Source: Liolophura sinensis (lineage: Eukaryota; Mollusca; Polyplacophora; Chitonida; Chitonidae). From it: a stretch of DNA of 64,000 nucleotides. The stretch is taken from NCBI RefSeq assembly GCF_032854445.1, contig NC_088299.1, positions 3,075,001-3,139,000 on the forward strand, read 5' to 3'. Below, piece by piece: positions 32,769-47,138 of the stretch. Numbering within the stretch: the stretch's first letter is position 1; each line of letters starts with the position of its first letter. The translations under genes and the position numbers were made by a program. The notes under the pieces are model-generated. The model saw only the letters and a program-made list of their open reading frames with translations. It did no database searches and was not told the origin of the DNA.

Positions 32769-33082
32769 ATGTGGTGGAGTGTTGCAGGCATTGGGGGTGG
32801 ACTCATCAGGAAATGTTTTCACCTGTCACACACCTGTGCTGTGTGTGGCCGGCCCCGGACTGTTTCCTCATTCATCACATCTCACAAAGTACATAAAGTA
32901 CTAACCGGTCAGGTTCACAGGACATATGCTAGCACTGTTAGGAAGAAACCGTCCTGGCGGAAGAGGTTCCTACTCCTCTCTTCAGTCAGTCTTATGGCTG
33001 GAGGCGGGGTTTACGTTTTACTAGATGCTCCACAGAGGCGAAAGGTCAGAGTTATGGTTGGTGGTGTAGGCAGGTTTTTAAG
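32769..33082 (+). CDS. ADCK5: ADCK5 exon 1
   Basis: Begins at the first ATG after an in-frame TGA (32733), giving [10 protein letters not shown], similar to the MWRPV start of vertebrate ADCK5. It encodes the basic targeting region and the hydrophobic segment [19 protein letters not shown]. It ends in phase 2 (AG) before donor GTGAGA at 33083; the split Arg codon is completed by exon 2. Confidence 0.88.
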
Positions 33083-33945
33083 GTGAGAATGCTCAGTCTT
33101 GTCTCTGTCTATTTCAGTGGTTATTTCTGTTCAGCTACTTGTTCTTGTGTATCACTTTGCTGGAAATAAAAATCTTGTTTAGAGTCCAAGTCCAGCTCAT
33201 GATAGCTTCTGTGCGAAAATCTGCCAGGAACATGGCCAGTTTCCTCCCATTGTTGAGTATGGTTTGAAAGGCTGATCAAATATATGCATGTAAATACGTC
33301 AGTCAAATTGCAAGAAATGTTTTCAAAATATTACTAAAACTGATATCATCAGAATTTTGTAATATGGCGGACTTTTACGTTTAAGTAAATTACACCACTA
33401 TGTCCGGACCAGTGGAATTTTGGCTGAGCCAGTGTTTCAAGTTGTGGTTGGTCCGTAAGTAGATGAAATGTCTTATGCTTGCATTTTAGATCAGGTATAA
33501 TAGGACTGGCAATATCTTTAGATTATAAATGGAGTCTGTGGAATTTAGAAGATGAAACGGAGCAATATAACAGCGCTATACGTTCCTGCCACAAGAGGGC
33601 TGCTCAAAGAATCCTGGCTGGCTGTCTGGCCAATGGTGGCCTCTACGTCAAACTGGGGCAGGGACTGAATGCCATGAACCACATTCTACCTCGAGAGTAC
33701 ATTGATACGTTAGTGGTATTACAAGATAAGGCTCTTCACCGTGGACCAGATGAGGTGGGTCATAGGTTTCTCCAGGGAGGTGGGAGCATAGGTTTAGTTA
33801 TGGGAGGAGGGTCTGTGTTTTTTTTTTTTTTTTTGGGTGGGGGGTGGGGGTGGGGTGTTGCTCAGTGTCTTTGAGACGCTCTATTCTGACAAAATTAACA
33901 CAGGACAGATAAGGAATATAGGAGAAAATTGGACGTCCGAGGACC

Positions 33946-33977
<32 letters not shown>

Positions 33978-36900
33978 GATTGTTGTTTTACGCCGTACTC
34001 AAGAATATTTCACTTATACGACGGCGGTCAGCATTATGGTGGGTGGAAACCGGGCAGAACCCGGGGGAAACCCACGACCATCCGCAGGTTGCTGACAGAC
34101 CTTCCCACGTACGGCCGGAGAGGAACCCAGCATAGGCTGGTCTTGAACTCACAGCGACTGCATTGGTGAGAGGCTTCTGGGTCACTACGCTGCGCTAGAG
34201 TTCTAACCGACTGAGCCACGGAGGCCCCCTAGGACTGGATTTCAAATTCTGGCTAAATCTATGGGAAAGATGGGAAAGGGTGCTCATGTCACATGGGACA
34301 CCCTATGCTGATTTAAAAATTGATATGAAGACGATAAGGAAAATAGGACAAAATGCGAAAGAGAAAACATGATTTCATGGTTGGATCACAAAGCTGTCTT
34401 GCACTCATTTCAAAACTTTAACTTCTTAATTTCATAACAATGAACTGCTCTAAAGTTGTGACAAACTTTAGGAATAGGAGACTCCAGGACAAGCAACACA
34501 TAAGGTCTAAATGACAGTACAATGTGTGGTTTTCTTCTGTGATGTTGCAGTGCATGTGTACTTCATATATGTTGTATGAGCCCACATACACTGATAATTA
34601 TGACGTAATAAAGGAAATTCACAACTTTGGATGGTCATGATACAGACAGAATGGAGTTCAGGAATAATTCTTTAGTCTAAAGCCATCTTTGTGATCCCTG
34701 GCCTGATCCTTTCTAACATATTTTGTATCGCCAAACCGCAAGACAAAATGCAGTCAATACATATAGTTGCTCTTAGCTTTGTTGAAGACCATTCTTTCCC
34801 ATCAATGTTGCATGCATATTTATAGATGTACATGTATCTGTATAGGTCCATTGTTTGTCCTGGGTACTCCATTTTCCCCAGCCCATAAAAATGCATGACT
34901 GCTGTTGTATACAAGTGAAACATTGTTTGATGATATGGAGTCATTCATTCATTATCAAGCCATTATCATGTTGAATAAACTGAAACAAGATCTCGTTCCG
35001 TTGGATGCAGCTTTGAAGCTGCTGTTGTTTTCCCTGATTCGGTTTCTTCCTTAGATACATGGTAAATCAGTGTAACCACAGATGTTTTGGTAGGCTCAGT
35101 ATGGCATGAATCGCTAAATCAGTCAATCAAACAAATGAATTAACAAAGAGGAGGAAATTTGCTGTTAGCTGCAACATATTTCTAAAAGATAGGATGTCGG
35201 TAATTTGACCAACCGATTTTGTTACAGCTACATGTAAAAAATGACATGGCTAAGCTGTAGACTTTATCTGACAGGTACGTCAGCTGTTTCTGGAAGATTT
35301 TGGGGTCACTCCAGACAAGATGTTTCGTGAGTTTGATACAGAACCAATTGCTGCGGCTAGTCTGGCTCAGGTCCATAAAGCCATGACGCATGAGGGAGAG
35401 AAAGTGGCAGTTAAGGTGAGTTCTGTATACTCTACATGCACCTGGGGGGTTTGTATGACCAAGTCTGTTATTTCACCGATGGGATTATCTATCAGAGTAG
35501 TCTACTGAAAATTTACATATATAATGAAATCCGAGCTACCTGGGAGCAGAATGAGGGGTATTTGTGACCAAGCGGTTTAGTGGTATGCAAGCACAGCACA
35601 GTGACTAAGAAGCCTCCCACCAATGCCGTCAGGCTGAGGCCCAGCTGATGCTGGCTTCCTCTCTGGTTGTACTTGTATGTGAGAAGGTCTGCAAGCAATT
35701 TTGGAGATGTCCTTGGGTTTCCAATGGGCTCTGCTCGGTTCCTTCCCAGCGTAATGCTGGCTGCCAACGGCATGTTTAAAAGTAAACTTTCCTCAAGTAC
35801 GCCTTAAAACAAATAAATAAATGTAAACAGAGTACATAGGTTTATTGTGTCACATATATCATTTTTGTAGTTATTTCATACCGGTATTTTCAGACAAGGG
35901 TGCAGTTTTACTTATAAATTTGTTTGTAGAAATGGATTAAAACAATACAGGTATACCGTATTTCTACAAAATTTTCGCAAGCATGGGGCCTGAAAACTTA
36001 CGGGGTTGAATCCATGACAGGCAGAATGGGAGATTGGGGGTAATCCTGTTCTTGTAAGAAACACATCACGCACCGCAGGAGGTCTGACGTGCTGAGACAC
36101 CCGCGACAACAACAACACCTGTCAGTCAGCCAGCGCAGCCGTATGCGCGTGACTATATGGTTGGAAGTAGAAGACAAATACTGGTCTTTTTTTTATAATA
36201 TTTACCAGAAATATCAAGTCCAAAACTGTTACAGACAACAGGTGGTTTTACATTTTTACATGTTTGCTCCCGTAAGAAAATTTATTTTCATGCAGTTGTT
36301 TGCATTAGATTAGAACATACATGTACACGTCATCACCCCTTACCAATGTAGGCTCGGATGACATAACAATAGGCTGGCGTTCTTTGCTTGAAAATTTGGA
36401 GGCGATGTCAGTGTACAACTGACGGGGTGAATTCAAATTTAAACAGCCAAATAGTATTGATATGCAAATTGGAACTTTGCTCAGTTCTAGCACAGTTTAT
36501 AGGAAACGTCTATCACAGCAAGCGACCTGAGACAACCACGTGTTGTTTTGCCTGTACTAACTAGACAAAGTGTTGTGGACATCATTACAATACATCAACC
36601 AGTAGAGGGCTTTATGATCATTTTACTAAAATGGTTTAGTATCAAGACCAAAGTTAATGTGGTAATTAAAAGTCATAATTGTCACTAGGTGCATGTTGAT
36701 GTGTAAAATTTTGAACTCCTATCATATAGTCTAGATTTGGCGGGAGATTTCACAACAAAACTTTATGTTTATTTAAACTTTATGTTATTGGTGCTGAAAA
36801 TACCACCAATACGTTTGATATATCTGCACCAGAATGTTCTAATTACGTTCGTCGGAGTTTATTGCTATTAGACAGGTGTTGGCATAGGAAGTTTGACCTC

Positions 36901-39900
36901 GATTTCACTGATTTGGAATCCTTGATTGAGGCACTCAACATCGTGCGATGGCTGTTATCATACTTGACAAACGATTTGTGTGATACATATTTTAGGTACA
37001 ATCTGCTTATTAAGTCATGTGTAGAAATGGTTTAAAACAATACTGGTATAATGTGATTTAAACGTGTAAAGTTTTGTGTAAGCTGTATGTTTGTGTATAC
37101 ATATATTGTGTAGAGTACAGTTTGTGTGACCCATATTTCAGGTACAGTACATTTTGTGTGACTGGGAAGGTCTGTCAGCAACCTGCAGATGGTTGTATGT
37201 TTCCCTCGGGCTCTGCCCGGTATCCACCCACCATAATGCGGGCCACCATGGTATAAGTGAAATATTCTTGACTACGGCGTCAATCACCTAAGCACCAATC
37301 AAATAAATAAATAAATAAATAAATCATTTTTTGTGACCCATTTTTTCAGGTGCAGTACCGTTTGTGTGACCCATATTTCAGGTACAGTACATTTTATGTG
37401 ACCCATATTCCAGCTACATGTACTGTACAGTTTGTGTGATACATATTTCAGGTACAGTACATAGACCTGCGGGACAGGTTTGTTGGGGACATTGCTACCT
37501 GCGAGCTACTATTGCGCTTAATTGGATGGATCCACCCCAATTTTGGTTTCGCCTGGGTTTTACAGGTAATACTGAGTATGCGAGAAGGAGTGTATACATA
37601 CATGCACCCATTCAGCTGGCATACGTGATATCAGTCATAACCAATGCTGGTTCCTGTATAAGCACAAACTGATGTGTAGCTACATTTACATGCAGTCTAG
37701 TCTATTCTAGTCTATTGATGATGATTCATGTGGTAATTTATAACGTCTAATGTGGTACTAATGCACTTAAAAAATAGGGGTCAGTTCAGCTTGGTCCTGA
37801 GTGTACAGAAGTGTATCCCGTCGTGCCTCAATATCAGTTGTCAGCAAAGATATATCCCAGTGGGACATACAGATGTAGATGTACATAGTGTAATTCTTCA
37901 ACCTTTTTGCATATTTGCAAGGTGTTTATTCAAGCAAATTCTGAAGACAGTTTTCTGTGTTGACTGATAAAGTTATGCTTATTGTGAAGCTCAGACACAA
38001 TCCGACCAATCTATGGTGTCTCCAAAATCAACTTACAAATGTGTATAAATTGTTCTGAAAGTTGCTCTTTCATATGCTGAAAGGTCAAGGAATTAGATCA
38101 TATACAAATGATGTGGACTCTTGAGCTACATGCACAGTGTATTTTGGGACAACTAGCACCTTTGCTGCTTTGGTCAAGTACTAGATAACATAGTTTTGGA
38201 AAATTTATTTTTATGATTAGGTACCTATAAATAAAATGCATAGGCATCGGTTGAGCTTTCCACAGCTTTTTATCAATTATTGAGTAGGATCTTCATCATG
38301 TATCAGTAGTGTGATTGAATTTGAGCACAGGGCCAAAAACTGCAGTCAAAAAAAACCTGAAAAACAAATGTCTATTGAATGTACTTGTATATTGTGTTTT
38401 TTTTTTGTTGTTTTTTTTGTTCTGTCAAGGATTTGAAAGGCAACCTTGCGGAGGAATTAGATTTTGAAAAGGAGGGTAGAAATGGTGAGGAATGTCAGCG
38501 GGACCTGAAGGACTTTAAGTACATCTATGTGCCAAAGATACACTGGGGGAAAACCAGTAAAGTAAGACATTCCCTTGTGTCACTAAATAGATGAACAGAT
38601 CCTGATATTTGTTTTATTTGGTGTTTTAAACAGCACTTAAAAATATTTTGCATACACCATGGTGACCAGCATTACGGCGTGAGGAAACCAGCCAGAGCCC
38701 CGGGAAAATCCATGACACATGTGGGAAATTTTATTTCAAGTAACACATTTTGCTTGATGCTGATTGTTTCATTCACCTTATAGTGCCAGATAAAAGATCT
38801 TTATGGAGTTAGGTTAATTTCTTATCAGAAAAACTTGAATTTTGGAATTCAGAGTGTTATTTTAAGGCCTTAAAGTACTGCTTAATTGTGGAACTTGATT
38901 GTCTGCACTAATATTTGTCTACTTGTCTTTATAGCGAGTACTAACAGCAGAGTTCATTGATGGCGTGAAAATAAATGATAAGGCAGGACTGCTGAAGATG
39001 GGCCTGACTTTTAAAGATGTAAGTCTGGTTTGGGAAAGAATAGTGCATGCAAATTAGTGGTCTAACTATGCAAGGTTTCACTTTCGACTGTGAAATATTA
39101 AGAGTCTGTATTCTAAAATGAAGTAATTTTTTTTATTTATCAAGAGTAGCTCAAATTACTGCCTTTTATACAATGTCAGACTTGTGCCTTTACTATATAT
39201 AGTTTTAAAATGATTCCATTTATTTATTGCTTTGAATGGTGTTTGTACGCAATTTGAAACATTTTATATTCATGACTATGTCACTTACATGACTAGGGCC
39301 AGGATTTTGGGTTGCTGGCACTATTCAAAAAAGCGACATGCATTATAAATCTTATGAACTTGATTGCTGCTTGAACGGTATCACATGCACTGATAAGGCT
39401 GATCTTTTGAAAGGTATTTATATGGGCTATTCTAAAACAATAGTAAATAACAATTCCGTCTAGTTTTTTGCAAAAAATCACCAGTATAGTCTCTTTAAAC
39501 ATTTCATGATCCCAGTTTGCTTGTATTACCCCTCTGGTCCCTTAGAAATCCATTAAATTAAAAGCATACTGTACTTATGCCTGTAATAAAATGTGGAAAG
39601 AGAGATAAATTACTGCTTGTTTCTCAAAGTTATCGTGAAAATGCTTCTAAAAATTGTCATGGCCTTCTTTGGCTGACTTAGATCAGATTGCTGCATCTTG
39701 TTCAAAGAGAACTCGTCTTCAGATCCAGCTCTCACATGTTGGATTGTAGTCTGGTCAGGAGGTCTTGCAAGCTTATCTTGATTCCGGGGCACTCTTAAAG
39801 CACTTTAATGTTACAAATGCACAACTGCCATGGAGATGTTATGTCTACATTGCTGGTTTCTATGGTAGTAATGTACATACATGTAAATCTACATCAGCTT

Positions 39901-42900
39901 TATGCAAGCGGGCCGAGAGGTATGACTATCATCCGTGAAGTATAACGTGTGAGTGTTAGAAAAGAAAGCAACGAGGAAGAAAAAACAGAGTTGTCAAGAT
40001 TCTTAGATATCATGGAGACATCATAACCTAAAATACTGGCATATGAAAGTGCACAAAAAGGCTGAAGTGAGTTTCGTTCTTCTGTTATAGGTTGATGAAA
40101 AGTTAGTGAAATGTTTTGCTCACCAGATATTCCGCTCAGGTTTTGTTCATGCAGACCCTCACCCAGGCAATAGTAAGTTACGTGCATGTCACTGTAAACT
40201 TTTAGTGTGCTTGATATTTTGTAATCACAGGTGCTTGATATTTTGTAATGCCATCGTATCATGACTGTTTCACAACGACTGCAGTATTTTGGAGAAGTCT
40301 AATCATTATTGGATTAGAGAAAAGGAAAAATAGGTAACGTGAAAATCAGAAGAAAAAAAGCAAAACAAAGGTTAAGTAATGATTGAATATCAGTGTGGAA
40401 TTTTAATTATATTAATGATTATAATTATTGTGGTTGATTTAATTATACATTAACGATTATAATTATAATTACATATATATCTTAAAGTTGGTTGCCCAAT
40501 TTGGACTTGAACTTGTATACACATTTTATCATCGCATATTTACTCTCAAGGGGTGTAGTCTTTAATGGATTTCTTTATTTGATTTGTGTTTTACGCCGTA
40601 CGCAAGAATATTTCACTTATATGACGGCGGCCAGCATTATGGTGGGAGGAAACCTGGCAGAGCCCGAGGGAAACCCATAACCATCCGCAGCTTGCTGGAA
40701 GACCTTCTGATGTACAAGTCTTTAACAGAGATTTTGAGCTGTACATGTACTGCACATCATTGAAACCCAGAGAATAAAAAAGCTTTGAAAAACAAGAGTG
40801 GAGAGAATGGACATTTTTTGGAGTAAACATCGTGAAAATTAAAAAAAGGCCTTTCAAAAGATGTTCAAAGTTAGCATTGCTGAAAGCTGTTGTTTTATTT
40901 GTCAGTATTTGTGCGTCGTGGTACTGATGGGAAGGCAGAGCTGGTTTTGCTGGATCATGGCCTGTATGACCGGCTATCCCCGCCCCACAGGGAAGCCCTA
41001 TGTAAGCTGTACAAGTCCATCATTAAGAGGGATGAGCTAGGCATGGAGCAGTTCTCCAGGGAGCTGGGAGTGGAAGGTGAGCCAATACATGGGATCTGCA
41101 CCTGTGGCAGGACTGGCTAGTCTTCTTGGTAAACTGTATAACTGAACTGGTAACTAAAAAAAAAAACGTAATAACAAGTTTCAGTTATTTACTTATTTAT
41201 TTATTTGATTGATTACGCCATACTCAAGATTATTTCATTTATATGACAGTGGCTAGCATTATGGTGGAAAGAATCGGGGCATAGCCCATTGGAAACCACA
41301 ACCATTTGCACAGTTGCTGACAGTGAGGAAACCAGCATGAGCTGGACTCACATCAACCACATTGGTGGCAGGCTCCTGGGTCATTGTGTTGCACTAGCTC
41401 GCTAATCACAAGGCAGTGGATGGCCCCATGTTTCAGCTAGGATTAAGATAGACACTGTTAAACTGTCTCAATCGCAGGTTTCAGTTAAGAAAAGACTGTA
41501 TTTTATACATGTATTTAGATGTATGCCTGTTTAGTAATATTGCCTGTCCTAGTCCCATTATATGTGAACATACCACATCCAGGGACCTGTTTCACAAAGC
41601 TGTTGCAATCCTATGACAACAAGTCCAATTTTAATGGTGACATACTAGTATCTCTTCATGGTATTTTGTCATGGATGTTATGCTAGGTGCAATTTGTGAC
41701 TGCTTTTAAACAGTCCACAGATATTCCTCCTTATTTATGCTCCAGGGGCCTCCATGGCTGAGACCGTTGCACTGTAGCACCCCGGTGAGTTTAATTCTAG
41801 CTCATGCTGTCTTTCTCTCTGGCTGTATGTGGGAAGGTTTTCCAGCAACCTGTGGATGGTGCAGGTTTCCCTTGGGCTCTGCTCAGTTTCCACACTCCAT
41901 AATGCTTCCTGCTGTCTTATAAGTGAAATATTCTTGGGTACAGCATGAAACAACTATCAGGTAAATAGATAAATCAAGCTTGTTCACATGAGTCAGACCA
42001 CTTGAGCAGTATTACAGTTTTATCATGGTGATCATACAAATAACAAATATGTTTGTTAGAGGCTTAGAGGTGTGGTAATGTAGAGAATGTTACAATGGGT
42101 CGGTGTTGCTCTCTCCATCAGACTATTACATATTTGCCATGATGGTCGTGTCACGACCTGTCAAACTGAAAAGTCACCCACCTGTCAGAATGAAGCGGTA
42201 CACGAAGAAGGAGTGGCGAGAGATGAGCCCAGAGACGAAGGCGGAGCTGCGTGCTTTTTTTGTCGACCTCCACGAGAGAGTGTTACAAGTGCTGAAAGAC
42301 ATGCCTTCACCTCTCCTCCTTATATTTAGGTACTGTCCATTCACCTAACCATTAACACCTCTTTAACACGCTCAGACTTGACGGCTGTCCGGTGTAGAAG
42401 GCTGTACTTTTCATAGTGTGTTTGTCTTAAAAACCAATTTATAGTTTTAGGTAAGGACTGATGTTCTGAGCCTTCTGTGTTCCAATCATGCAGACTTGTA
42501 TATATTTATATGTTCATAATTATTTCTGTCAAGCTTATTGCGATTAAGAAAGATGCTGAATTATGAAATGAGTCATTAAGAAACTTATAGATTGTACAAA
42601 CCTTTGAGCCGAAAGCCGTCCAATCTGGAGTCTTGTTGAAGGGATCAGTATACTTCATGGTTTACGCTTTTAGAGTAGATCATGTTTCATTTGTGACAGA
42701 TCATCCCATGTTTTGTGAGATCCTTGTACAGCGCCCTATAGCAAGGGAGACTACCCAGTTGCCAAGCTATCTGACTGTGGCCGATCTGGAGCACATGAGA
42801 GAAATGGCTCAGAATCATTTTGATAGAATCATGGCGGTTCTGAAGAAAATGCCCAGGACTATGATTCTCTTGATCAGGTTGGTGAAAGCAAAGCTACCTG

Positions 42901-45900
42901 TAGCTTATGATCTGCAGGTTATTTTTCCTCTCTACACTTCACTGTATAAATAAATTACAGGTGTATATATATATAGTTAGCAAAGAGTTTTACGATTTGG
43001 TCTTCTGCTCAGCTGAGTTTTGTCATTTTGATGAGGTCACTGTTTTAATATGTTAGTTCCATGGTATGTTTGTTTTTGTTTGCCTCCCTGCTTTGTCACA
43101 AACTCAGGAACTTTGCTCAGATATTAATTGGCATATTAATCAGCTTAATTTGCATAAATGTTCCCATTGTGATTTCCATACCTACTTACAGGTAGTTCAA
43201 GATTGCTTGTGGAGAAAATCATTTGGACTATGCCTTTTGACTTTTTCAGGACTAACCTTGCATTAATTTTTATAATAATCTCTTTAATTTGCATAACTGT
43301 CACGGTGTACCGTTTGGCATTTTCAGAGCTATACTTACTATACAACATTTGGCATTTTCAGAGCTATACTTACTATACAACATTTGGCATTTTCAGAGCT
43401 ATACTTACTATACAACATTTGGCATTTTCAGAGCTATACTTACTATACAACATTTGGCATTTTTTAGTGATTGAGAAATCTGTTTTGAGGTTTATCCCAC
43501 CTAAGTAATTCTATTTGTCTTATAAGTAGCAATTAACATCACAGATTTTTTTTTACCTAATTCTGCTTAAGTCATTTTTGCTAGGGATGTGTAATTTGCT
43601 ACTCTTTAAGCATTTACACAGACAGTTCGTACAAAACCCTTACTGATTTAAATTGAAAAGAGGCCATATTTCACTGGTTACGCTGCATTATAGGCATTTA
43701 CACGAACACTTTGAATAAAACGTTAGCTGAGGTAAATATATCATGATGAGGCCATATTTTTCCAGTTGCGTGTGACCATTTCCCAGCTATAACACTGTCA
43801 ATGCTGCTTTGGTTTTACTCTCTGTGCTGTACATTTTTAACCATTATGTAAATCGATGATATGCAAAATTACTAACACCATGTTTGTGAAGTGTCGGCTA
43901 TTCTAATGCTTAAAGATTTTGCTCTTAATAACTGCATTTTATAATTTGCAGAACCTGTTAGCTTTGCTTTCACCAGTTTGTTTAAAATTTTGTTCATATT
44001 CATTGATACTTCTATATTTTCTTTTGGTTAGATTTGCAGTTCTCTTCTGTAATGCATGTATTTATAGTATTGTTAATTGTGAAGGCTTTGGCACATATAG
44101 CCGAGAGTGAAAAAAAAGAATTTAATTTGGGTTTCCAATAATCTGTTTATCAGTGATGGCCATTTAAACTATTTAGGTATTAATACACACATGTACATCG
44201 CTCATAGAATCGTCTTTCATGACTCTCATTGTTAACGGGGCCTAGGTGACAACGGTCATCAGTCCTGATGGGAGCATTTGCACCTTGTTTGTTGAAGACC
44301 ACTCGTCTTCCACAACTCCATAAAACTGACTGTCATCACGCAAGGGAAAACATGGCATTTAACAGAAATAAAGTACTTGAATTAATTTAAAACTGAATAA
44401 ACAAGGCATAAAATAAAATTTGAGTTTCCACCAGATTGTTCCTGCGTTTACGCCCATGTGTGTCAGGAATGTTGGTTGTGTGTGGGGAGTTATATCCTCC
44501 GTTAAAGTTCTCCAAATTGTTTTCCTCTGTCTACCACAGAAACATGAACATCATCCGTGCCATAAACAGAGAACATGGCCACCCTGTGGACAGGTACACT
44601 ATCATGGCACACAGGTGAGAGTTATGTAATTGCACACACATTCTGATATTACCTGATTTTAAACCCGGGTCAGGTCATATCAAAAGCTTTAAAAATGGTA
44701 CTTGTTGCTGCCTAGCTTGGCACTGAGCAGTGAGAGGTTAGAGCAAGGAACTCGGACTAGTTGACCCAGTGTCATTATAATGTGACTGGGTGGGGTACCA
44801 TGGCTGGTGTCAACATGACAACATGGACTCCCCCTGCCACAAGAAGACAGTATACTGAGTATGTACACACACTTAATGACTGGTTGTTGTCATATGATAG
44901 AAAAATTGTAGAAGTACAACGTAAAACCCCAGGCATGCATACATTTTTATGATATTCTTAAAATGTTGAATTCTTTATAATGTTTGAGGGTGGGCATCAT
45001 TAAAATATGCCCTTTGCTTTATAAAGATTAAACCTTCGTTTCAAGAAACCACATGTTTTAGAACAAAAGGATAAATTATTGACTTAATCATATATATATG
45101 TACATGTATGTGTGTGTGTGTGATAGATGTATATATGGGAAATATATAAAAGTGAAATATTCTTGAGTACAGCGTAAAACACCAGTCAAATAAATAAATG
45201 AATAAATTTTAATTTCCAACACTAATGAATGTTGTGTTTTACCCACGTCCATATTGTTTAATTGTGGTAAGATCATCAGTCTGAAGAGCTTGATATATTA
45301 ATCATTTTGATATCCACTGACACTGTTTGATCCTCAGCTGGATTGTTTTTCAGTGCAATCTCGGGCTCCTATCAGCATGGCAACACGAGAGGGCTTTTGG
45401 CACGGGCTTACAGCTGGTTAGAGAGATGTCACTTGGATTATAGAATAAGGTAGGGATTACAGTCTCACTCTGTCCCATCGTGTCAATGTTAGATAAGTGA
45501 ACTGAAAATAGTGAATTTCATAAGCGGCGTTCAGACGATATGGTTTGTCAAATGCTACAATGGCAGGTCCTATTTTCATTTGACTCGTCAACTCAATAGT
45601 TGCAGTGTGAAGGCAACTTAATGACCACGCTGTTGTAAATGACAGGACCTCTACCATTTTTCTCAAGGTGTTCTTTTAAAACCCCGAAGGAAAGCACAGT
45701 TTTCAGCACCTGATCACCTTGTTGATCTAGCTTGGTGAGAAATCATATAAAACTTCATGTGATTATTAACATTGTAGGCATTTATATGACCTCACATGAT
45801 TTTTCAGTAACCGATCACTCTTCTGCACTTCAGTTCGCGTAGCAGGGTGATTAGATGGTGAAACATTTCATGACATTATAGATGATTTACTATGGTGTGA

Positions 45901-47138
45901 AATGTGGTAATGACTGTTCAATGTTTTGAAGTATTTTTGTAAAATTTTTATTCATAATTCAAATATTAATGTTGGCATGTGTAATAGGGGAGTTTCAAGT
46001 TTGTACTTCTTTTTCACTGAAGGTAAAAAATGTCTACTGTACAACATGACTTCTTAGAAATGTTAGACAACTATTTTTTATTATATTTACTGTGACATGA
46101 GTGCCAAAAAATGTTTCCGAAAAAGTTATTTAGAATAAATGTACAATGGAGAAAATATAGGAACTGAGACTTTGTGAACTTAAGAAATTCTTCATGCATA
46201 GCGGTGTCACTGATCTACTTACAAAATGGCGAGACAGGTGTTAGGTAAATTAATGTCCACAAATGTGGCCTCAGATTTTTAACAAGTCACATGATACAGA
46301 AGCACTATTTTTACCTTTAGTAACAAAGAGTTCAAACTTGAAACTCTCCTATTAATGAATATGGAGAGCAATTCATTGCTGGTCACTGAAATATTGGTAG
46401 TCAGAGTAAATGTAACAGCCTAAAGTGTTGATTGCGTGGAAAGTTCGCTGGACATATTGGTAGTGCGAGTAAATGTAACAGCCTAAAGTGTTGATTGCGT
46501 GGAAAGTTCGCTGGACATATTGGTAGTGCGAGTAAATGTAACAGCCTAAAGTGTTGATTGCGTGGAAAGTTCGCTGGAAATATTGGTAGTGCGAGTAAAT
46601 GTAACAGCCTAAAGTGTTGATTGCGTGGAAAGTTTACTGGAAATATTGGTAGTCCGAGTAAATGTAACAGCCAAAAGTGTTGATTGCGTGGAAAGTTCGC
46701 TGGAAATATTTGTAGTGCGGGTAAATGTAACAGCCTAAAGTGTTGATTGCGTGGAAAGTTCGCTGGAAATATTTGTAGTGCGAGTAAATGTAACAGCCTA
46801 AAGTGTTGATTGCGTGGAAAGTTTGCTATGGAACGCCATATTTTAACAAATGAATGAAAAATTGTACATAGAAATAGGGAGTTATATGTAGGTGCACCTG
46901 TACTTTAAACAATGCAGATGTTTTGAAGCTGAACTACACAAAGATCAAAAGTAAGATAAAGGATTGCAGTGCTTTACATGTACAAGTATCTACTTTTGTT
47001 GGTATCATTACCATTTTCAGTGTTGAAAAGTTCCAAATGTGGCTTGCCACAACGTACCTGAGGCTGCTTGCATTGATTGGTCGAAGCCCTTCGTTTGAGA
47101 AAGTTAAGCAGCTCATGGACACTGCAGAAAAACAGTAG
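32769..47138 (+). CDS. ADCK5: aarF domain-containing kinase 5 (ADCK5), spliced gene with 12 exon positions
   Basis: Joining 32769-33082, 33490-33754, 35275-35415, 37452-37565, 38430-38561, 38935-39018, 40091-40172, 40906-41076, one of 42122-42329 or 42700-42877, 44540-44614, 45354-45449 and 47021-47138 gives an unbroken frame of 599 or 589 aa. Human ADCK5 is about 580 aa. UbiB/ABC1 hallmarks (9b isoform numbering): KLGQG (159-163), the Ala-rich loop [11 protein letters not shown] (219-229) replacing a glycine loop, VAVK lysine K240, [10 protein letters not shown] (287-296), HADPHPGN (370-377) and DHG (394-396). The N-terminus is rich in Arg/Lys with a hydrophobic segment near 67-86, fitting a mitochondrial presequence plus membrane anchor. 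ADCK5 rather than ADCK1 or COQ8 is called from the N-terminal MVGGVGRF and the C-terminal region after the DHG. Family members ADCK3/4 support coenzyme Q synthesis; the substrate of ADCK5 is not established. All introns are GT-AG. Confidence 0.93.
33490..33754 (+). CDS. ADCK5: ADCK5 exon 2 (KxGQ motif)
   Basis: Acceptor GCATTTTAG, 265 bases, phase 2 to phase 0. It encodes [14 protein letters not shown] and the family-defining [10 protein letters not shown], then [10 protein letters not shown]. Donor GTGGGT at 33755. Confidence 0.92.
33950..34229 (-). mobile_element. SINE family A, full-length antisense copy in ADCK5 intron 2
   Basis: A 27-base T run (reversed poly-A tail), then the complete body, then the tRNA head (its reverse complement reads GGGGGCCTCCGTGGCTCAGT). 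The flanks AGGACCGGATTT and AGGACTGGATTT are a target duplication. One of the best-preserved copies in the window. Confidence 0.9.
35275..35415 (+). CDS. ADCK5: ADCK5 exon 3 (Ala-rich loop and VAVK lysine)
   Basis: Acceptor TTATCTGACAG, 141 bases, phase 0 at both ends. It encodes [10 protein letters not shown] through [11 protein letters not shown] and the nucleotide-binding lysine in VAVK. Donor GTGAGT at 35416. Confidence 0.93.
35560..35823 (+). mobile_element. SINE family A, diverged sense copy in ADCK5 intron 3
   Basis: Recognisable by GATGCTGGCTTCCTCTCTGG, GAAGGTCTGCAAGCAA, GTAATGCTGGCTGCC and the AAATAAATAAATG tail. The head is heavily mutated. Confidence 0.75.
36977..37461 (+). repeat. 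ADCK5: Tandem repeat of the ADCK5 exon 4 acceptor
   Basis: Units of about 32 bases like TTTGTGTGACCCATATTTCA followed by GGTACAGTACA recur near 36977 (weak), 37121, 37330, 37360, 37395 and 37430. The last one is the true 3' splice site plus the first exon bases. A SINE interrupts the array between the second and third units. Confidence 0.85.
37160..37324 (+). mobile_element. SINE family A, truncated sense copy inside the acceptor array
   Basis: Starts at GGGAAGGTCTGTCAGCAACC and ends in a long (AAAT)n tail. The flanks CATTTTGTGTGAC and CATTTTTTGTGAC are the duplicated target, itself part of the tandem unit. Confidence 0.83.
37452..37565 (+). CDS. ADCK5: ADCK5 exon 4
   Basis: 114 bases, phase 0 at both ends, encoding [14 protein letters not shown] to FGFAWVLQ. 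The acceptor and the first ten exon bases are the last unit of a tandem repeat (about 36977-37461), so several near-identical decoy acceptors lie just upstream. The one at 37450-37451 is chosen because only it keeps homology and frame. Confidence 0.92.
38430..38561 (+). CDS. ADCK5: ADCK5 exon 5
   Basis: 132 bases, phase 0 at both ends. It encodes [18 protein letters not shown], the conserved ADCK acidic/asparagine motif, and KIHWGKTSK. The acceptor follows a T-rich tract (38398-38426). Donor GTAAGA at 38562. Confidence 0.93.
38607..38725 (-). mobile_element. SINE family A, decayed antisense fragment (intron 5)
   Basis: GGTGTTTTAAACAGCACT, GACCAGCATTACGG and GAGGAAACCAGCCAGAGCC match the body with many changes. 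Confidence 0.55.
38935..39018 (+). CDS. ADCK5: ADCK5 exon 6
   Basis: 84 bases, phase 0 at both ends, encoding [18 protein letters not shown] and [10 protein letters not shown], the strand and linker before the catalytic loop. Acceptor TCTTTATAG, donor GTAAGT. Confidence 0.93.
40091..40172 (+). CDS. ADCK5: ADCK5 exon 7 (catalytic HxDPHPGN)
   Basis: 82 bases, phase 0 to phase 1. It encodes [17 protein letters not shown] and the catalytic loop HADPHPGN. Donor GTAAGT at 40173; the Ile codon is completed by exon 8. Confidence 0.93.
40571..40712 (-). mobile_element. SINE family A, truncated antisense copy (intron 7)
   Basis: TTTATTTGATTTGTGTTTTA, then ACGACGGCGGCC-like core and AACCATCCGCAGCTTGCTGG. 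It lacks the tRNA head. Confidence 0.82.
40906..41076 (+). CDS. ADCK5: ADCK5 exon 8 (metal-binding DHG)
   Basis: 171 bases, phase 1 to phase 1. It encodes [20 protein letters not shown], where DHG replaces DFG as in the UbiB family, and the helix ending SRELGVE. The last base, G, begins an Asp codon that either exon 9a (AC) or 9b (AT) can complete. Donor GTGAGC. Confidence 0.93.
41184..41430 (-). mobile_element. SINE family A, antisense copy (intron 8)
   Basis: Reversed AAAT tail, diverged body, head end GTGGATGGCCCC. Flanks GTTTCAGTTA and GTTTCAGCTA suggest target duplication. Confidence 0.78.
41744..41975 (+). mobile_element. SINE family A, full-length sense copy (intron 8, just before exon 9a)
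   Basis: Head GGGGCCTCCATGGCTGAGAC, B-box region GAGTTTAATTCTAGCTC, body, and a tail ending GGTAAATAGATAAATC. It ends about 150 bases before exon 9a. Confidence 0.83.
42122..42329 (+). CDS. ADCK5: ADCK5 exon 9a (alternative, divergent copy)
   Basis: 208 bases (3n+1), phase 1 in and phase 2 out, acceptor GCTCTCTCCATCAG, donor GTACTG. It encodes 70 aa starting [16 protein letters not shown] and ending [10 protein letters not shown], with a basic stretch KRYTKKEW. Relative to 9b it carries about ten extra residues in the middle. It is clearly homologous to 9b ([15 protein letters not shown] versus [15 protein letters not shown] versus ILLIR) with the same boundary phases, so the two are interpreted as mutually exclusive exons. 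Confidence 0.85.
42700..42877 (+). CDS. ADCK5: ADCK5 exon 9b (alternative, canonical-length copy)
   Basis: 178 bases (3n+1), phase 1 in and phase 2 out, acceptor CATTTGTGACAG, donor GTTGGT. It encodes 60 aa starting [18 protein letters not shown] and ending [10 protein letters not shown]. As far as I recall the vertebrate ADCK5 sequence, this copy matches its length without gaps and is the more conserved. The acceptor polypyrimidine tract is weaker than that of 9a. Confidence 0.87.
43313..43465 (+). repeat. 35-bp tandem repeat, 4 copies (ADCK5 intron after exon 9b)
   Basis: TTGGCATTTT recurs at 43314, 43349, 43384, 43419 and 43454. Four near-identical units contain TTTTCAGAGCTATACTTACT, each with an acceptor-like TTTTCAG and an ACTTAC. 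The last unit is incomplete. Confidence 0.95.
44226..44400. repeat. Possible dispersed repeat, family D
   Basis: Shares ordered motifs with 30822-31024 (TTGAAGACCACT, ACTGACTGTCAT). Boundaries are uncertain. Confidence 0.35.
44540..44614 (+). CDS. ADCK5: ADCK5 exon 10
   Basis: 75 bases, phase 2 to phase 2. The split Arg codon is completed as AGA after either exon 9. It encodes [19 protein letters not shown], the conserved post-kinase motif, then TIMAH. Acceptor CTACCACAG, donor GTGAGA. Confidence 0.92.
44705..44935 (+). mobile_element. Dispersed repeat / SINE family C (intron 10)
   Basis: TATAATGTGACTGGGTGGGG recurs as TATAATGTAACTGGGTAGGG at 62586, and its 3' end (CATATGATAGAAAAATT) recurs at 49657-49672. 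An old retroposon is likely; no head was identified with confidence. Confidence 0.5.
45138..45207 (+). mobile_element. SINE family A tail fragment (intron 10)
   Basis: AAGTGAAATATTCTTGAGTA, CAGCGTAAAACACCAGTCAA and an AAAT tail; the rest is absent. Confidence 0.7.
45354..45449 (+). CDS. ADCK5: ADCK5 exon 11
   Basis: 96 bases, phase 2 to phase 2, encoding [20 protein letters not shown] and [11 protein letters not shown]. Acceptor ATTGTTTTTCAG; donor GTAGGG at 45450. Reading through the donor meets a stop at once. Confidence 0.88.
46391..46831 (+). repeat. 63-bp tandem repeat, 7 copies (ADCK5 intron 11)
   Basis: ATATTGGTAG recurs every 63 bases from 46391 to 46769. Units are over 90% alike by eye and include AAATGTAACAGCCTAAAGTG and TTGATTGCGTGGAAAGTT. 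The near-identity points to recent expansion. Confidence 0.96.
47021..47138 (+). CDS. ADCK5: ADCK5 exon 12 and stop
   Basis: Acceptor ACCATTTTCAG, 118 bases to TAG at 47136-47138. It encodes [20 protein letters not shown] and a C-terminus ending LMDTAEKQ. An AATAAA at 47497-47502 is a possible polyadenylation signal; a SINE tail lies in between. Confidence 0.9.

Follow-up and report, generated by a model that had tools for sequence, protein, structure and literature searches.

The coq-2 gene of C. elegans, helminths, annelids and molluscs carries two homologous internal exons, 6a and 6e, that are used one at a time (PMC7434440). In C. elegans each of these is 134 nt long (3n+2), so that inclusion of both shifts the reading frame, and the choice between them remodels a quinone enzyme with a shown effect on quinone type (PMC7434440). 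A tandem exon duplication with exclusive use is also known from the transporter gene MRP1/mrp-1, where the two exons are of the same length, RNA stems have been proposed as guides and the pairings are reported across species (cited in PMC7434440 and PMC6071210). In srp, 14-3-3zeta and Dscam, complementary intronic stretches lie around the alternative exons, as established by species comparison and partly by minigenes; such exons are known to be selected by stems that compete with one another or that surround each exon (PMC6071210).

We describe here a candidate pair of this kind, exons 9a and 9b, in an ADCK5-like kinase gene of a chiton. The design is a known one and, within the open-licence literature searched, the gene is new for it: no mutually exclusive exon pair in ADCK5/aarF kinases, molluscs included, was found among the papers listed there, in agreement with the original prediction, which knew of no description of alternative exons in ADCK5. 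In contrast to the coq-2 and MRP1 exons, 9a and 9b differ in length by 30 nt, and any difference in their function is putative. The candidate RNA pairing comes from a single genome, with its main stem lying over a splice donor. Available sections of the literature record mouse Adck5 as showing a retained intron (PMC9467408) and call the roles of ADCK proteins other than COQ8A/B elusive (PMC8346625). The chiton assembly was published as Liolophura japonica (PMC11068029, available sections), a name since corrected to L. sinensis (PMC12441733), and five-tissue RNA-seq for the animal is named in the same sections (PRJNA973839; PMC11068029).

The window analysed is a stretch of 64,000 nt (NC_088299.1, positions 3,075,001 to 3,139,000), and the features discussed are collected in Table 1. 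The predicted gene model was built by eye and by translation from one genome; on recomputed frames both single-exon isoforms end at the same TAG (47136–47138). Each isoform, submitted without its final residue, matched Pfam PF03109 (ABC1) with an E value of 3e-76 over residues 182–426. We use the name ADCK5 as an assumption, taken from the original prediction and from the human family. The gene is distinct from two other family genes of the assembly; the nearer of the two, with exons joined by eye, we take to be ADCK1, a name that is likewise an assumption.

Table 1. Coordinates of the features discussed, numbered within the window
Feature	Position	Strand	Remarks
ADCK5-like (UbiB/ABC1 family) kinase gene	32769..47138	+	coding exons 1-12, with two versions of exon 9; Pfam ABC1
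Exon 8	40906..41076	+	contains the DHG motif; last base is the first base of the exon 9 Asp codon
Exon 8 donor region	41072..41096	+	one side of a weaker candidate pairing by which 9a would be looped out; third of 52 tests, z -3.2
Exon 9a	42122..42329	+	208 nt; 10 residues longer than 9b, with a basic insertion; donor TAG/GTACTG, lowest score of twelve
Intron 9a-9b	42330..42699	+	370 nt
Partner of exon 8 donor region	42386..42413	+	in the intron directly 3' of 9a
Exon 9b	42700..42877	+	178 nt; donor CAG/GTTGGT, second lowest score of twelve
Stop TGA, 9a and 9b joined	42716..42718	+	frames recomputed
Stem, 5' arm	42875..42896	+	covers the 9b donor, -3 to +19
Stem, 3' arm	43959..43980	+	inside intron 9b-10
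Exon 10	44540..44614	+	common downstream exon; carries TGA 44545-44547, read when 9a and 9b are both skipped

The layout of the two exons, including their coordinates, lengths, matching phases, AG/GT ends and the 370-nt gap between them, was as originally predicted, and the recomputed frames gave the same four splice outcomes. Joining exon 8 through 9a to exon 10 yields a product of 599 aa and joining it through 9b one of 589 aa; including both exons reads AGA TCA TCC CAT GTT TTG TGA, and skipping both reads GAA ACA TGA. These premature stops lie 159 and 67 nt 5' of the next junction respectively. Mutual exclusion enforced by the reading frame is thus supported at the level of the sequence. 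Two details of the prediction needed adjustment. The junction codons were claimed to be identical, which holds for the Arg codon (AGA in both), whereas the Asp codons are only synonymous (GAC with 9a, GAT with 9b); and the 3n+1 length of both exons, although true, counts as one fact and not two, because the exons have the same phases. Exon 9 was also correctly placed just past the kinase domain: the ABC1 match ends at residue 426 and, by exon lengths, exon 9 begins at residue 435, with the 10-residue insertion of 9a sitting after an RPV/RPI motif. Besides the 9a–9b pairing itself, a search of the window for a third copy of the exon gave only short matches (E at least 1.2). An assembly search in which 9a was joined to the first part of exon 10, and one candidate was scored, returned only its own locus; 9b was missed too, so that diverged copies may exist elsewhere.

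The two exons share 16 of 60 aligned residues. Their local alignment score of 51, compared with a shuffle mean of 23.8, was reached in 1 of 5000 shuffles, and the score of a single-gap codon alignment in none of 3000 codon shuffles; judged by these alignments the homology is weak but real. Over the 60 aligned codons, identities at codon positions 1, 2 and 3 number 23, 39 and 18, against 16.3, 17.0 and 15.8 expected from composition. Because the real alignment had been picked on protein score, the same choice was applied to the null, shuffled codons being aligned by the same procedure as the real exons; neither the position 2 identity of 39 (shuffle maximum 31) nor the gap between positions 2 and 3 (39 minus 18) was reached in 3000 codon shuffles. 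Position 3 is near background and the silent sites of 9a and 9b are therefore saturated which, with the protein pattern kept, argues against 9a being no more than a duplicate in decay. Both exons appear to have been under protein selection for most of their separate history. Of 10200 overlapping windows of 210 nt taken from introns of the kinase gene, 159 are open.

A comparison within the assembly gives a scale for this divergence. Identity to the putative ADCK1 is 15/61 for 9a and 15/60 for 9b, so that here the divergence within the pair equals that between paralogues. In length 9b represents the usual form, because the putative ADCK1 lacks most of the insertion. A prokaryote scan recovered AarF/UbiB proteins, of which 80 of 421 were kept, 79 of the 80 gave an open reading frame and 13 entered a profile; a scan of viral_contigs with exons 8–10 of the 9a form found no relatives, and NCBIfam had no match for the 9a peptide or for the segment containing it. 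The isoforms compared with the 79 bacterial proteins carried a wrong C-terminal tail (the end of exon 12 was a few bases off), which was cut away for the profile. In these comparisons seven of the 79 had a best match that extended to residue 480 with one or both isoforms: L007, L008 and L014 continue through exon 9 with either form (9a/9b-form scores 195/197, 191/185 and 172/174), and four others (L012, L016, L025 and L080) reach that residue only with the 9b form. The bacterial profile scored the 9a form at 29.3 bits and the 9b form at 34.2 bits; the exon's own profile score was reached by shuffled 9a in 17/300 and by shuffled 9b in 1/300, falling to 4/300 and 0/300 when ADCK1 was added to the profile. 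By these measures the bacterial relatives are somewhat nearer to 9b than to 9a.

Eleven of the 13 bacterial profile segments were aligned with 9a and 9b, and every row of this 13-row alignment retains the proline that precedes the last helix. The exon peptides, folded alone with 13-row alignments, gave models of low confidence (mean pLDDT 71.2 and 70.4). The helices of the two are alike: they are predicted at residues 3–10, 27–50 and 53–59 of the isolated 9b peptide, and at 2–10, 37–60 and 63–69 of 9a together with a short extra one at 29–34; the low-confidence fold thus places the extra part of 9a after the first helix and ahead of the long one.

We favour the explanation that 9a and 9b are a genuine, old and frame-enforced mutually exclusive pair, derived by tandem duplication, in an ADCK5-like kinase of the UbiB family, and on the sequence evidence would give this a probability of about 0.83. 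The chiton probably makes two forms of the kinase, because both versions of the exon look long preserved by selection and only one is usable per message. An exon only recently out of use would still look constrained, and this has to be counted against the pair. We consider it unlikely that 9a is a duplicate on its way to loss or silenced of late, with a frame inherited open but no further use in splicing. The 9a donor, with the lowest of twelve scores, fits such a history, as does the closer approach of the bacterial profile to 9b; the codon pattern, however, with position 3 near background and position 2 identical at 39 of 60 codons, places most of the time since duplication under protein selection, and the 9a acceptor is intact (12 pyrimidines of 17, mid-range within the gene). 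Moreover, when 9b was decayed by simulated neutral substitution to the observed identity, 7.9% of 2000 copies stayed free of stops, indels being left out of the simulation. We find it somewhat less likely again that the pair is mainly an off-switch, in which messages with both exons or neither are destroyed and the dose, rather than the form, of the protein is regulated. Both of these messages do carry early stops 5' of the next junction, yet a poison exon need not hold a homologous open frame, and 9a is under apparent protein-level constraint.

The two donors of the pair have the lowest of twelve scores, -1.6 (9a) and 1.5 (9b), the ten others in the gene ranging from 2.7 to 8.3; the scores come from an informal donor matrix, with exon 12 left out. 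The 9b donor is also covered by one arm of an uninterrupted 22-bp stem (19 Watson-Crick and three G-U pairs), the longer of two stems of at least 17 bp listed within 41060–44560. A stem of 22 bp was present in 0 of 227 shuffles, and its energy of -31.5 kcal/mol was equalled in 0 of 1000; its core, a perfect inverted repeat of at least 17 nt, is of a kind that turns up somewhere in 1.6% of 500 shuffles. Among 52 splice-site tests with 60 shuffles each, a set that includes a mispositioned exon 12 donor and two tests at the start codon, which is not an acceptor, this stem ranked first (z -5.4). A second candidate pairing, in which the exon 8 donor region would bind the intron 3' of 9a, is given little weight because the mispositioned exon 12 donor outranked it (z -3.7). 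A recent inverted micro-duplication would give the same 22-bp stem, which may have no function. Its arms were also considered as a transposon end and this was rejected: judged by the 40 places scored of 3565 candidates in the assembly, the dispersed repeat of intron 9b-10 (approximately 43501–43861) excludes both arms.

If 9a and 9b are the exclusive pair that we propose, the spliceosome would pick between two weak donors, and RNA structure would bias the choice because the 22-bp stem must open for 9b to be used. An mRNA with a stop well 5' of a junction is destroyed by nonsense-mediated decay. Messages with both exons or neither, carrying early stops, would be expected to meet this fate, so that only the two single-exon forms would yield protein. 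Both proteins would keep the kinase core; the difference would lie in the segment directly after it, where the basic loop added by 9a could alter partner, lipid or membrane binding. Isoforms differing solely in this segment would be a ready-made comparison for its function. The stem on the 9b donor, if conserved, would amount to a simple splicing lock that can be put to the test.

A special case of this explanation is that the choice of exon 9 is part of a switch between ubiquinone and rhodoquinone, with the 9a form serving low oxygen alongside the alternative coq-2 exons. The idea is attractive: in C. elegans, coq-2 exons 6a and 6e decide whether ubiquinone or rhodoquinone is made, and the same coq-2 pair is present in rhodoquinone-making phyla, molluscs included (PMC7434440, available sections); ADCK1/5 have been proposed as orthologues of Cqd2, a yeast protein with an effect on CoQ distribution (PMC8346625, available sections); and the chiton coq2 locus has both an a-like and an e-like exon, the divergent exon coming first in coq2 as in the ADCK5-like gene. 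Against this, the passages of the quinone literature that were examined give ADCK5 no role in quinone handling, the terms 'ADCK' and 'coq-8' are absent from the available text of a paper on rhodoquinone genes (PMC8659336), and the activity of the e-like coq2 exon is uncertain. We regard the special case as speculative and its chances as slim. A low probability likewise attaches to the broader idea that rhodoquinone-making animals use exon choice to switch two quinone proteins, with COQ2 setting the kind of quinone produced and an ADCK5-type UbiB kinase its placement, with 9a as the low-oxygen form and the stem on the 9b donor as the lock. The pair would offer a test of splicing-switched quinone handling in animals possibly living through low oxygen.

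In the chiton coq2 gene the e-like exon (L001 2964–3095; G000 C7:53965500–53973500) has Leu and Ser as in the rhodoquinone (e) form and is 132 rather than 134 nt long, with its likeness spread across three frames, which may reflect a sequencing error or a true loss. The a-like exon lies 3' of it (L001 3444–3577), is 134 nt long and is open. The method of exon-pair detection recovers this coq2 pair (E 9e-6) as well as 9a/9b (E 0.010). Applied to ADCK1 and COQ8 it gave, among the matches listed, only repeats and short chance matches in place of exon pairs of the same type, the other ABC1 matches (C7, C8 and C6:17549643) being left out. That two genes of one genome, both with possible quinone connections, have a similar exon layout is suggestive only.

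The introns of the kinase gene also contain other repeats. Intron 9b-10 holds a tandem array at 43313–43463, with a 35-nt unit in 4.3 copies and 100% matches, in which the unit has an acceptor-like TTTTCAG; a second array, at 46388–46827 in intron 11-12, has a 63-nt unit in seven copies with 95% matches. Pieces of a SINE-like repeat, recognised by eye and by repeated open reading frame matches, are present in several introns (33980–34230, 40580–40710 and others).
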